A stretch of DNA of 44,696 nt, taken from the NCBI GenBank assembly GCA_012729055.1, contig JAAYDW010000024.1, positions 1 through 44,696 of the forward strand. The letters are read 5' to 3'. Each line of letters starts with the position of its first letter. Positions within the stretch are counted from its first letter, which is position 1. Positions 38,514 through 44,696 of this stretch are shown piece after piece. This stretch comes from Deltaproteobacteria bacterium. GTDB lineage: Bacteria > Desulfobacterota > Syntrophia > Syntrophales > Smithellaceae. Under the pieces are notes generated by a model. It searched no databases, had not been told where the DNA came from, and saw only the letters and a program-made list of their open reading frames with translations. Both the position numbers and the translations under genes were made by a program.

Positions 38514-40055
38514 TCAGGCCCAGTTCTTCTCCGCCGCCGCGTTTTTACCGGCGATCCGTCCGAACACCAGACAATCGATCACCGCGCAACTGCCGAGCCG
38601 CACCGCGCCGTGCACGCCGCCGGTCACTTCGCCGGCCGCGTAGAGGCCGGGAATCGGTTTGTCCGTCATCACATCCAGCGCCTGAGCGTCGGTGTTGATG
38701 TTCACACCGCCCATGCAGTGGTGGACTTTCGGCGTCAGCCGCATGGCGTAGAACGGAGCTGTTTCGATCGGTTTGGCGTCTTTCCAGAGATAGCGGCCCC
38801 AGGCCTCGTCCTTTCCTTTGACCAGCGCTTCATTGTACTTCTTGATTTCTTCCATCATCGGTTCGAAGGGGACATTGTAGGCTTTGGCCATTTCTTCGAG
38901 GGTGTCGTACTTTTTGACGATGCCTCTTTCCATGAATTTGGGAATGGCGTCTTTTTGCAGCCGGGTGCCGTTTTCATCGCAAAAGGCGATGCAGCGGTTG
39001 CCGACCCGGAGGATGGCGTCTGCGCGGACTTTGCGGTCGGCCAGTTCGTTGACAAAGCGTTTGCCGGTTTTCGTGTCGACCCAGAGGCCGTATACCGCCG
39101 CGCACCCCTGTCCGAAAAAGGCGGCGAGTCCGAAGCCTTTTTCATCCGGGCTGCCCCAGGGCGCCAACTGGATCCAGGACACCTGGAGAGGCGTGCAGCC
39201 GATGCGGAAGGCTTCCCGCAGCGCGTCCGCGGTTGCGCCCGGCTGATTGGTGGTATCCACCTCGTTGGTCAGGCGCGGATCCTGAATGGTGCGGAAGCTG
39301 ATGTCGGCGCCGAATCCGCCGGCCGCCAGAACGACCGCCTTCCGGGCCCGGATGGTTTTGAGCTTGCCGCTGTCGGTTTTCGGGAAAACGTATTTTTCCC
39401 GGATCTGAACGCCCTTGACCCGTCCATCCGCGTCGCGGTAAATCTGGGTGAGGTAGCTTTGCATTCTCGGCTGGACGCCCAGCTCCTTGAGCTTGGCCAA
39501 CTGCTGCTGGACGATGGCCGAACCGCTCTGGTTATAGGTGCTGTACATCCGGGGGACCGCGTGACCGCCTTCCTGGCTGACGCGGCCCTTGTACTTGACG
39601 CCCAGTTCGTCAATGGTCCACTTGACAGTGGGCCACGAGCCTTCAGCAACCATCTTGGCCAGTTCCGGATGGTTTAAGCTGAGTCCGGCTTTCAGCATGT
39701 CCTGAAAGAGCACGTCCGAAGAATCCTTGATGCCCTGTTGCTCCTGCAGCGGAGAGCCGGCCGCCGCGACGACACCGCCATTGATGATGGAGTTGCCGCC
39801 GGGCGTGCGCATTTTTTCCAGCACGACCACGGAGGCGCCTGCTTTTTTCGCTTCATAGGCGGCTGCGAGTCCCGCAAAACCGCTGCCGATCACGACCACG
39901 TCAAATGTTTCGTCCCATTTCTTAGGCAGTGCGGCCGCTTCGGCGCTCCATGGCGTCAAAGCCGCGCCGCCGGTTGCCAGTCCGGCGACAGCCGCCGTTG
40001 CCCCCGCCGCTTTCAAAAAGCCGCGACGGCTCAGTGTTTTTTTTGTTTCTTCCAT
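38514..40055 (-). CDS. Tat-exported flavoprotein reductase subunit, flavocytochrome c family (copy 1)
   Basis: This is a 513-residue FAD protein. The Tat signal has SRRGFLKAAG (Arg10-Arg11) and ends with EAAA near residue 41. The FAD-binding motif VVVIGSGFAGLAAA follows. The fold matches the flavin part of periplasmic fumarate reductases without a heme domain, so electrons must come from a separate cytochrome. Catalytic Arg is present in LADRKVRADAI (Arg402 region of Shewanella Fcc3), His in KVHHCMGG (His504) and Arg in GAVRLGS (Arg544). The substrate motif LHPT is replaced by LAPW, so fumarate is an unlikely substrate. A good ribosome-binding site (GGAGG) precedes the ATG. It is a paralogue of, and divergent from, the gene at 40647. 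Confidence 0.88.
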   Translation of the reverse strand: MEETKKTLSRRGFLKAAGATAAVAGLATGGAALTPWSAEAAALPKKWDETFDVVVIGSGFAGLAAAYEAKKAGASVVVLEKMRTPGGNSIINGGVVAAAGSPLQEQQGIKDSSDVLFQDMLKAGLSLNHPELAKMVAEGSWPTVKWTIDELGVKYKGRVSQEGGHAVPRMYSTYNQSGSAIVQQQLAKLKELGVQPRMQSYLTQIYRDADGRVKGVQIREKYVFPKTDSGKLKTIRARKAVVLAAGGFGADISFRTIQDPRLTNEVDTTNQPGATADALREAFRIGCTPLQVSWIQLAPWGSPDEKGFGLAAFFGQGCAAVYGLWVDTKTGKRFVNELADRKVRADAILRVGNRCIAFCDENGTRLQKDAIPKFMERGIVKKYDTLEEMAKAYNVPFEPMMEEIKKYNEALVKGKDEAWGRYLWKDAKPIETAPFYAMRLTPKVHHCMGGVNINTDAQALDVMTDKPIPGLYAAGEVTGGVHGAVRLGSCAVIDCLVFGRIAGKNAAAEKNWA

Positions 40056-42268: not shown

Positions 42269-42790
42269 ATGGAAAAAAGAAAGAAGAATCTGAAAATCGC
42301 GGCGGTTCTGTTCGGCGCGGTTTTGCTGGTGGCTGTAAGTTCGGGACTTTGGGCGGCGCCCAAGCTCGCCGTGTCCAAGGCCAAGCCGGGCGACTGCGCG
42401 GCCTGTCATGTCGATAAAAAGGCGCTTCCGGAGACGCATCCCGACACCAAAACGATGGATATAAAGGCCTGCCGGGCCTGCCATGCCAGCGGCGAGATGA
42501 GCCTTTCTGGAAAATTTCCCGGCAGTCACGCGCACATGCTTTCCGGCGTAAACTGCGCGGCCTGCCACGGAAAGACCAAGCAGCCGGAAGAAGTGCCGAT
42601 GGAAAAATGTGTTGCCTGCCACGGCAGCACGGCCAAGCTGGCGGAAAAAACGAAAGATGTGAAACCGACCAATCCGCATACGTCGCCGCATTATGGAACG
42701 GAGCTGGACTGCAACCTGTGCCACAAGCAGCACGCCAAATCGGAAAATTACTGCGCGCAGTGCCACAAGTTCGACTACAAGGTGCCGTGA
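42269..42790 (+). CDS. Periplasmic hexaheme c-type cytochrome
   Basis: This 173-residue protein has an N-terminal signal or anchor helix (about 9-28) and six CxxCH heme sites: CAACH, CRACH, CAACH, CVACH, CNLCH and CAQCH. Spacing resembles the cytochrome c3/c7 and small tetraheme groups, with extra His residues able to act as the second iron ligand. It lies directly behind flavoprotein copy 2 and most likely hands it electrons in the periplasm. A hairpin (CGTCCG at 42208-42213 and CGGACG at 42216-42221, then TTTT) in the gap may lower read-through without stopping it. RBS AAGGAG lies about 9 bases before the ATG. Confidence 0.9.
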   Translation: MEKRKKNLKIAAVLFGAVLLVAVSSGLWAAPKLAVSKAKPGDCAACHVDKKALPETHPDTKTMDIKACRACHASGEMSLSGKFPGSHAHMLSGVNCAACHGKTKQPEEVPMEKCVACHGSTAKLAEKTKDVKPTNPHTSPHYGTELDCNLCHKQHAKSENYCAQCHKFDYKVP

Positions 42791-42938: not shown

Positions 42939-43202
42939 ATGAATAAGGAACGACAGAAAGTGCTGAACCGTTTGAAGCGCATCGAGGGACAGATTCGCGG
43001 GCTGCAGCGCCTGGTGGAAAGCGGAGCGCCCTGTGTTGATGTGATTACTCAGATGTCCGCCGTGACTTCGGCCATGAAAAAAACGGCGGCGGTCATCATC
43101 GTCAATAATATGAACAAGTGTCTCACGGAGGTTTCCGAGAAACCGGAAGTTCTGCAAAAAGACTTTCAAACGGCGCTGACGCGTTTTATAGACCTTTCCT
43201 GA
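42939..43202 (+). CDS. CsoR/RcnR-family repressor, CstR-like ligand set
   Basis: This 87-residue all-helical repressor of the DUF156 family starts MNKERQKVLNRLKRIEGQIRG. Cu(I)-sensing CsoR uses Cys, His and Cys. Here Cys32 (APCVDVITQMSAV) and Cys61 (NNMNKC) are kept, but the His four residues before the second Cys is Asn57. The persulfide sensor CstR has the same pattern as I recall it: two Cys at the same spacing and Asn in place of His. I therefore favour a sulfane-sulfur or persulfide sensor over a copper sensor. The ATG at 42939 fits the operator-overlapping ribosome-binding site; the longer frame upstream lies in the terminator and cytochrome gene. It precedes the 11-heme cytochrome gene by 168 bases. 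Confidence 0.88.
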   Translation: MNKERQKVLNRLKRIEGQIRGLQRLVESGAPCVDVITQMSAVTSAMKKTAAVIIVNNMNKCLTEVSEKPEVLQKDFQTALTRFIDLS

Positions 43203-43370
43203 CGGATCAGGAACACCGGATCCGGAATAACACGGATGTTGAACCCTTGCCGGCGGCCACGGACTGTTGGTTCCGGCGTGAAAACCGGCGAAGAGAAGCA
43301 CAGGACGTCGCCGACCGGCGGGAAAACCGCATTGCCAAAGGAAGCGATTATTTTTTCCCAGAGGACTGGT

Positions 43371-44612
43371 ATGAAAAAGTACATTATTTTTTTCGTGTTT
43401 ACCCTGCTGTTGTCGAGTCTCTGTCTCTTTCCGGCCTTAGCGGCGCCCGGCGGCAGCTGCGTTGCCTGTCATACCAGCGAGTCGATGATGAAGTCCATGC
43501 ACAAGCCGCCGTCCCTCCCGGCCAGTACGGGCGAGGGGTGAGCAGGCGCGCCTCCGGCGGTCCGGCCGGAGATGATGTATCTGGGATACGTGGTGGACAA
43601 GGAGCTTCTGAAAAACGATCCGCATTTCAAGATGGGATGCGTGCTGTGCCACAAGGGGGACGCCAAGGCGTTCCGGAAGGAAGACGCGCACAAGAACGTG
43701 GTGAAAAAACCTTCGGACAACCTGCGCACCTGCATGATGTGCCACAAGCAGATTACCGAACGCTATGCCAAGTCCCTGCACTTTACGACGGTCGGGCAGA
43801 GAACCGGCGTGATGCCCCGCTTCTCTCCGGAAGAGCTCAAGACCTTCGATGAGAAAGTATTTGAAAAATCCTGCCGCAGCTGCCACGCGTCCTGCGGCGA
43901 CTGCCATGTGAAAGGCGCGCCGGTGGGCGGCATCAGCATCGGGCTTATCGCCAAGCACAAGTTCGTCAAAAAGGACGAAGGCAAAACCTGCGCGTTTTGC
44001 CACGGCGGCCGCGTGTATCCCGAGTATGTCGGCGAATACGGCGGAGCGCCGGACGTCCATTATCAAAAGGGCATGCTGTGCATGGACTGCCATAAGAAAG
44101 ACGAATTTCACGGCGACGGAAACGCCTACAAATCCAAAAGCGAAGTCAAGCAGCGTCCGGCCTGCAAGAACTGCCACAAGCCGGGCAGCGAGGCGAAGCT
44201 GACCGCTCAGGTCGCCCACCGCGAGCATGAAGGCAAAGTCAGCTGCTACGGCTGCCATTCCGGCGCGGCGTACCGCAACTGCAACGACTGCCACGGCGGA
44301 CACTCCGCCGCCAGGCCGGGCATGATTCTGGGGCGCAGCCCCCGGGACAAAAAAATGCTGACGACGCTGCGCCTGATTCCGACGGTGCGCGACACGTTTG
44401 CGCCGGCCGGCATTAAAATGGAGAATTTCGACGCGCTGCCGAATTACTGGGACACACCGGCGCACAACATCCGCAAGCGCACGGACCGCACCCGCAACTG
44501 CGACGTCTGCCACGTGGACCGCAAAAACTTTCTAAAACAGGAAACACTTATCAAAAACGGTTCCAAAGCTAACGAAAGCTTGATCTTTGTTCCAAAACCA
44601 ATTAGCCGATAA
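43371..44612 (+). CDS. 11-heme periplasmic c-type cytochrome interrupted by one in-frame TGA
   Basis: The frame starts at the ATG at 43371 with GAGG 6 bases upstream. It encodes a signal peptide (about 1-23) and the first heme site CVACH. Codon 57 is TGA (43539-43541). After it the same frame runs open for 356 more codons and carries ten further CxxCH sites (CVLCH, CMMCH, CRSCH, CGDCH, CAFCH, CMDCH, CKNCH, CYGCH, CNDCH, CDVCH). The downstream part alone has no signal peptide, and its first ATG codons (43572, 43575) sit against GGAG with no useful spacing. It could not be exported for heme attachment, so it is functional only if the TGA is read through. A SECIS-like hairpin follows the TGA. 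Alternatives are a nonsense mutation or an assembly error. The position lies in a linker (STGEG before, AGAPPAVRPE after). Confidence 0.7.
43552..43571 (+). promoter_or_regulatory. SECIS-like hairpin after the in-frame TGA
   Basis: CTCCGGC (43552-43558) pairs perfectly with GCCGGAG (43565-43571), leaving a six-base loop GGTCCG. The loop opens with GG and contains GGTC, and it begins 17 bases after the TGA. In E. coli fdhF the GGUCU loop begins about 18 bases after UGA. The fit to the bacterial selenocysteine element is good in distance, stem and loop start. I see no bulged U in the stem, and such GC hairpins arise often in this GC-rich DNA. Confidence 0.35.
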
Positions 44613-44625
44613 GAGGAGGGGGAAA

Positions 44626-44696
44626 ATGAAGAGATTCAAAGTGTTGAAAGCGTTGTTGGTGTTCCTGCTGATTTTGTTGCCGGCAGCGGCGCTGGC
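44626..44696 (+). CDS. Start of an exported protein (3' end outside window)
   Basis: An ATG at 44626 follows the 11-heme cytochrome by 13 bases, with a GGAGGGGG ribosome-binding site. The 23 visible codons read as a signal peptide: MKRFKVLK, a hydrophobic core (ALLVFLLILLP) and AAAL with a likely cleavage site at the window edge. It is probably co-transcribed with the cytochrome. Nothing of the mature protein is visible. Confidence 0.75.
   Translation, partial: MKRFKVLKALLVFLLILLPAAAL

Follow-up and report, generated by a model that had tools for sequence, protein, structure and literature searches.

The window, that is, the whole stretch of 44,696 nucleotides analyzed here (contig JAAYDW010000024.1 of the Smithellaceae assembly GCA_012729055.1), carries close to its 3' end, on the plus strand, a selenoprotein gene for a 413-residue c-type cytochrome with eleven hemes (positions 43371 to 44612) and a predicted selenocysteine (Sec) at codon 57. 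Its extent was defined by the frame with the internal TGA kept open and by full-length relatives. A GAGG ribosome-binding site (43361 to 43364, plus strand) lies 6 nt 5' of the ATG at 43371, where a signal peptide of about 25 codons, recognized by eye, begins (43371 to 43445). The motif scan placed heme 1 at codons 30 to 34 (CVACH, 43458 to 43472) and hemes 2 to 11 at codons 90 to 381, as ten CxxCH motifs (43638 to 44513), giving 11 CxxCH motifs in all, with the Sec after heme 1. The TGA (43539 to 43541) sits in the motif EG-U-AG and, from the translation and the alignments of homologues, would be read as Sec; the frame closes with a TAA at 44610 to 44612. The original prediction had described a signal peptide and heme 1 followed by this TGA and ten more in-frame CxxCH sites, and rereading the sequence and its translation bore it out. 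The same was true of its statement that the part downstream of the TGA has neither a signal peptide nor a usable ribosome-binding site: the internal ATG at 43572, 30 nt 3' of the TGA, has a GGAG directly abutting it and no signal-peptide-like start.

Upstream, on the same strand, family matches identified a flavocytochrome c family protein (TIGR01813, 40617 to 42200) and a CsoR/FrmR-family repressor (42939 to 43202). Between them is a small hexaheme c-type cytochrome (42269 to 42790), assigned from its sequence and from a scanned homologue. The flavocytochrome gene stands back to back with a second one of the same family on the minus strand (38514 to 40055). A CsoR/FrmR-family gene was also located upstream of the cytochrome, or within 3.5 kb of it, in several relatives. 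Regulators of this type can sense persulfide (CstR), and the position that we take to be the copper-binding His of CsoR is Asn in the regulator of the window. Both the hexaheme cytochrome (ending at 42790) and the CsoR-like regulator (ending at 43202) have TGA as a genuine stop, and a changed genetic code was rejected on these grounds. Downstream, on the plus strand, the start of the next gene (44626 to 44696) is cut by the end of the contig. Judging from its position and signal sequence, it is probably the exported two-domain rhodanese of the relatives, and its 23 readable residues matched only the rhodanese of one related locus (L003) and its duplicate (L064).

The first scan for homologues, with one genome per species, yielded 39 loci, mostly from Syntrophaceae, Smithella, and unclassified Deltaproteobacteria. 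In the first alignment, all 37 rows reaching the site had an in-frame stop within the motif EG-stop-AG. The codon alignment built from the window and the 39 loci retained 36 rows of the 40 sequences (L036, L037, L038, and L040 were left out), and the codon 57 column was TGA in every one (36/36). When this alignment was searched against whole genomes, 67 of the 155 genomes of the order were matched, 64 of them through a row with one internal TGA, and in the phylum 86 of 395 were matched, 45 with the TGA form (hand counts, with G319 counted from the codon alignment), many of the phylum matches being short and generic multiheme. Counted by hand over both searches, which had 8 genomes in common, an internal-TGA match was present in 101 genomes, which fall under 30 family labels within one phylum; the position of the TGA itself was verified at the fetched loci only. 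These loci amounted to 131 matches, 4 of which fell short of the column. TGA occupied the column in 123 of the remaining 127 rows, and a 124th (L126) had it two codons further on through the alignment. Once duplicates were removed and the window was included, 95 of the 98 distinct loci covering the codon had TGA. The three others had Ala (L090, genome G132), Gly (L091, G013), or a lost motif (L131, G481), and hemes were retained in the two of these that are full length and have a sense codon (11 motifs in L090 and 13 in L091).

A Cys codon was sought in every row covering the site and was found in none of the 98 distinct loci. Given that TGC and TGT are each one step from TGA, this suggests a chemistry that sulfur cannot replace. 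The original prediction had left Cys, UGA, Glu, Gly, and Arg as possible outcomes of a comparison of homologues, and the answer was UGA. From these alignments, the internal TGA is not an accident, and it seems to be common to about a hundred related genomes. Genome G467 has an additional second copy, broken and in pieces. The genome of the window also contains a second, diverged Sec cytochrome (L092, G000:C103:2096-3286), likewise with a TGA, in the motif HGUAGPPP, and with a distant rhodanese-like neighbor.

A candidate bacterial Sec insertion element (bSECIS) occupies positions 43552 to 43571 of the plus strand, as supported by sequence, folding, and scan as well as by covariation and codon constraint in the family. 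Its arms (CTCCGGC, 43552 to 43558, and GCCGGAG, 43565 to 43571) form a 7-bp stem closed by the loop GGTCCG (43559 to 43564), with 17 nt from the TGA to the loop, and the folding energy of the 48 nt 3' of the TGA was -19.0 kcal/mol. According to the Figure 2 legend of PMC13188914, bSECIS elements have a loop of 3 to 9 nt, a stem of 4 to 16 bp, a G in the first two loop positions, a spacing of 16 to 37 nt, and a minimum free energy of <= -7.5. With a loop of 6, a stem of 7, GG, a spacing of 17, and -19.0, the hairpin of the window is within all of these limits. The bacterial SECIS geometry that had been claimed for it was therefore confirmed, to which codon constraint and covariation could be added.

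Across the family, the strict bulge-free scan at its loosest setting detected a hairpin in 84 of 95 members, with 11 failing, versus 55% of the 2548 windows taken from these genes as controls; a score of at least 15 was reached by 59 of the 95 members versus 4.7% of the controls. Mean folding energies were lower than in the controls by 4.6 (near branch) and 5.9 (remote branch) kcal/mol, a modest shift, with 14% and 7% of the control windows, respectively, being as low. At the codon level, Pro+4 in the stem was CCT in 61 of 64 near-family genes, the lowest entropy of nine Pro columns, and Pro+5, also in the stem, was CCG in 57 of 66, the second lowest. Along similar lines, Gly-1, immediately before the TGA, was GGG in 59 of 66 genes and had the lowest entropy of 18 Gly columns, while the spacer codon Gly+2 had the highest (66 near-family genes).

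The hairpin alignments comprised 91 sequences that differed from one another over 42 nt, 61 of them from the near branch and 30 from the remote one. In the remote set, from which five sequences of the VAGUG type and L126 were left out (24 of 30 used), 95.2% of the stem cells paired and four of the seven pairs were altered on both sides. None of 500 shuffles reached the covariation score of this branch, and 31 of 500 reached the observed count of pairs altered on both sides. In some remote members, the stem arms were swapped, turning the peptide VAPLEP into VEPLAP, so that the protein follows the RNA. Covariation was thinner in the near branch (59 of 61 sequences, L092 and L098 left out), with 93.2% paired, a single pair altered in both arms, and a similar score after sliding by -1. 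As judged from sequence comparison, the frozen stem codons and the arm swap of the remote branch indicate that the hairpin is under selection at the RNA level. A relic of it is still found in the Ala form (L090). The Rfam search of positions 43300 to 43800 returned two sub-threshold chance matches only.

All four components of the Sec machinery, selA, selB, selC, and selD, for which the original prediction had advised a search, are present in the genome of the window (100% complete by the figure of the tool). SelA scored 507 bits (cut-off 22.8), SelB 355 bits (cut-off 242), tRNA-Sec 76 bits (cut-off 47), and SelD 379 bits (cut-off 125). The SelD gene (L058, G000:C51:96102-97031) itself has one internal TGA and is seemingly a selenoprotein too. 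Since SelB was above the cut-off in 353 of the 395 phylum genomes, the co-occurrence with Sec machinery supports this reading of the TGA but does not discriminate. Three genomes with the TGA gene (G412, G431, and G186) had SelA and a far weaker best SelB (E values of 6e-36, 1e-26, and 1e-55, respectively). Neither SelA nor a tRNA-Sec over the threshold was found in the genome with the Ala form (G132), which is 74% complete. The nearly complete genomes with the Gly form (G013) and the lost motif (G481) both had SelA and tRNA-Sec; Sec loss is thus not always tied to machinery loss, and we counted these two genomes against our best explanation.

UGA 57 is almost certainly decoded as Sec by the organism's own SelA/SelB/SelC/SelD, under the direction of the hairpin located 17 nt 3' of the codon. 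The UGA of the homologues, the complete machinery, and the constraint and covariation of the hairpin all support this central point of the original prediction, and our best explanation as a whole is, in our judgment, highly probable. Readthrough of the UGA without Sec, by a near-cognate tRNA or a local reassignment, or synthesis of two separate polypeptides, the second starting anew at 43572, is very improbable, having nothing specific in its favor other than the ATG located 30 nt past the TGA. TGA truly stops both upstream neighbors, the geometry of the stem-loop is that of a bSECIS and its pairs covary, the Sec machinery is complete, and the Ala member belongs to an incomplete genome in which SelA was not detected. 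Besides, heme attachment in c-type cytochromes needs a signal peptide, which the downstream part lacks. A nonsense mutation, a pseudogene, or an assembly error, once the main rival and suggested by the in-frame stop codon, has a negligible probability and was excluded by conservation: 95 of the 98 distinct loci, which come from many assemblies, share the TGA at this codon, and the codons of the hairpin are frozen.

How does this family relate to the selenoprotein cytochromes already described? The 2026 review PMC13188914 gives 119 prokaryotic selenoprotein families; two of those in its table are cytochromes, ExtKL (NF040886), traced to PMC1914089 and PMC5877670, and TIGR04315, for which Sec forms have been annotated in GenBank. 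It also lists as a selenoprotein the GSU2204 family (NF041027), a barrel protein with CXXCH motifs. A "cytochrome c family protein," WP_013164579.1, listed in the 2022 review PMC9312934, appears to be equated with ExtKL in the table of PMC13188914. Term searches in PMC2398784, PMC5029168, and PMC12013277 turned up no cytochrome. The statement that there is no well-described multiheme cytochrome selenoprotein consequently needs amending, as ExtKL and the Sec form of TIGR04315 are catalogued, although the 11-heme family is neither of them. Our literature searches and Table 1 of PMC13188914 contained no report of an 11-heme Sec family, which apparently is an uncatalogued one.

Like the window protein, ExtKL, from Geobacteraceae, is a multiheme c-type cytochrome whose single Sec is encoded by UGA and for which no Sec motif is listed, and its cluster includes a rhodanese-like gene, ExtH (PMC5877670). 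However, ExtKL has five hemes, all of them N-terminal and before the Sec region, as described in PMC1914089, whereas here there are eleven and Sec follows the first. Membership in ExtKL was rejected, given that NF040886 (cut-off 250 bits) had no match for the window protein at E <= 0.1; its best place in the genome of the window was on another contig, with 28 bits. The likeness to TIGR04315 and octaheme tetrathionate reductase (OTR) consists of a distant profile match over hemes 3 to 9, the best structural match (1sp3), a Sec or Cys between two early hemes, and the neighboring genes in genome G055. In contrast to the 11-heme family, with its Sec in an N-terminal extension, TIGR04315 has eight hemes and places Sec or Cys at NN[FL][U/C], before OTR heme 2. 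Moreover, Sec swaps with Cys in TIGR04315, while Cys was not seen in the 11-heme family. For instance, among 13 TIGR04315 genes fetched from the same order, 6 had an in-frame TGA (L151-L156) and 7 had Cys (L157-L163) between hemes 1 and 2. Membership in TIGR04315 (cut-off 375) was likewise rejected: there was no match in the genome of the window, the family matches listed for the window protein did not include it, five sister loci scored about 20-23 bits, and the NN[FL][CU] motif between core hemes 1 and 2 was absent from the 11-heme family. As for GSU2204 (NF041027), it belongs to the outer-membrane beta-barrel MtrB/PioB family and was not among the NCBIfam matches of the window protein.

To describe the protein, 60 diverse members, 29 to 83% identical to that of the window, were taken from the 98 for length and spread. 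The eleven heme sites were retained in all of them (60/60), heme 11 being CxxxCH in L142, L143, and L149, and nine further His residues (85, 107, 137, 196, 230, 247, 283, 286, and 365) were equally invariant. Gly56 was invariant too, and Sec57 was present in 59 of 60. With eleven heme sites and nine other invariant His, two hemes are left without a conserved distal His. NCBIfam provided weak matches only, far under the cut-off, the best being ExtM, ExtN, and ExtO at 36-38 bits, and Pfam detected generic cytochrome domains. The structure used was an AlphaFold model from the 60-member alignment (pLDDT 79.7, pTM 0.75), an earlier model from 36 close relatives having been poor (pLDDT 45). The Sec loop (residues 53-62) had a pLDDT under 50 in the model used.

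Comparison of this model with the octaheme structure 1sp3 gave a Z score of 8.2, borderline according to the note of the tool, with an rmsd of 4.5 over 259 aligned residues and the next hit at Z 4.2. Foldseek found no significant match in the PDB (best E 0.37), and profile searches of PDB sequences returned partial multiheme matches only. With hhalign, an alignment of 12 TIGR04315 proteins matched over hemes 3-9 with a probability of 98.7, bearing in mind that CxxCH patterns can inflate profile scores. In the same alignment, the Cys/Sec site of TIGR04315 had no Cys/Sec counterpart in the 11-heme family, where Sec lies in the N-terminal extension, within the low-confidence loop. Distant kinship of the core with octaheme tetrathionate reductase, plus three extra hemes, is thus the somewhat more probable reading of the model, and the placement of hemes 1, 2, and 10 as the additions to an OTR-like core is moderately supported. 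Other architectures were also seen. At L031:4326-6152, the Sec cytochrome is the C-terminal part of an in-frame fusion with a c7-type multiheme domain, reaching about 17 hemes, and open frames of about 604-610 residues were likewise found in some genera in the search of the order. Loci L095, L096, L097, and L091 form a subgroup with 13 heme motifs, and a cytochrome b561-type gene is next in L096, in place of rhodanese.

The rhodanese census covered 93 of the 98 distinct loci, those with no less than 2 kb of downstream sequence; the 5 that were dropped include that of the window. Rhodanese was adjacent or fused in 75 of the 93, 71 downstream (start within 2.3 kb on the same strand), 3 upstream, and 1 fused, and Pfam confirmed the domains in near and remote examples. 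No rhodanese was located nearby in 18 of the 93, among them the Ala (L090) and Gly (L091) forms. In the fused case (L131:255-2387, minus strand, genome G481), the rhodanese is C-terminal (PF00581, 112 bits) and the Sec motif has been lost; this fusion suggests that the functions of cytochrome and rhodanese belong together. Several relatives had NrfD, 4Fe-4S, and further multiheme genes near the cytochrome, and NrfD and FeS genes were just upstream in L029-L032, L035, and L039. A single stretch of G055 combined the Sec cytochrome and the rhodanese with a TIGR04315 cytochrome, a hexaheme cytochrome, and a long frame where relatives have the flavoprotein, along with frames that resemble the NrfD, FeS, and multiheme genes scanned at other loci; the names were given by resemblance.

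As for function, we tentatively propose that the exported 11-heme cytochrome may be a periplasmic reductase, possible rather than probable as a whole. Electrons would be supplied by the neighboring cytochromes and, in some relatives, by NrfD/FeS modules. The loop with the Sec, located between hemes 1 and 2, would fold over an open heme and accept sulfane sulfur or selenium from the exported rhodanese encoded next to the cytochrome, and the hemes would reduce the Se-S or Se-Se intermediate. This reductase, with Sec at an open heme and sulfur or selenium fed by rhodanese, is weakened by the pLDDT below 50 of the Sec loop, by the 18 of 93 loci without rhodanese, and by the rhodanese-fused L131, which is devoid of the Sec motif, and also by the absence of a significant Foldseek match, the borderline Z of 8.2, and the inflation of profile scores by CxxCH. 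The further step, an OTR-like 11-heme reductase with a Sec irreplaceable by Cys that ligates or lies over the catalytic heme and with a dedicated exported rhodanese, which would amount to heme catalysis based on selenium, with sulfane sulfur or selenium oxyanions as substrates, is doubtful.

Alternatively, Sec might be inserted but serve as an axial ligand or shield a heme, in a protein that only carries electrons and catalyzes nothing. We regard this as less probable than not: eleven heme sites face nine other invariant His, there is no CxxU or UxxC motif, and the members with sense codons keep their hemes (11 motifs in L090, 13 in L091), while the recurrent rhodanese neighbor or fusion and the OTR-like core suggest an enzyme instead. 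Less likely still is a selenite- or tellurite-reduction cytochrome acting like ExtKL of Geobacter. Both Sec cytochromes have a rhodanese-like gene near (ExtH in the cluster described in PMC5877670), and the weak matches at 36-38 bits were to ExtM, ExtN, and ExtO, but the sequence is not that of ExtKL and its Sec comes after heme 1, whereas in ExtKL five hemes precede it, as PMC1914089 describes.

With 101 genomes (hand count) and 30 family labels within one phylum, a large family seemingly is added to the known selenoproteins. Because no NCBIfam model reached its cut-off on the members scanned, annotation probably leaves these genes truncated or split. The family would place selenium within a multiheme chain, with a rhodanese alongside, and the role of a Sec next to heme thereby becomes directly testable.
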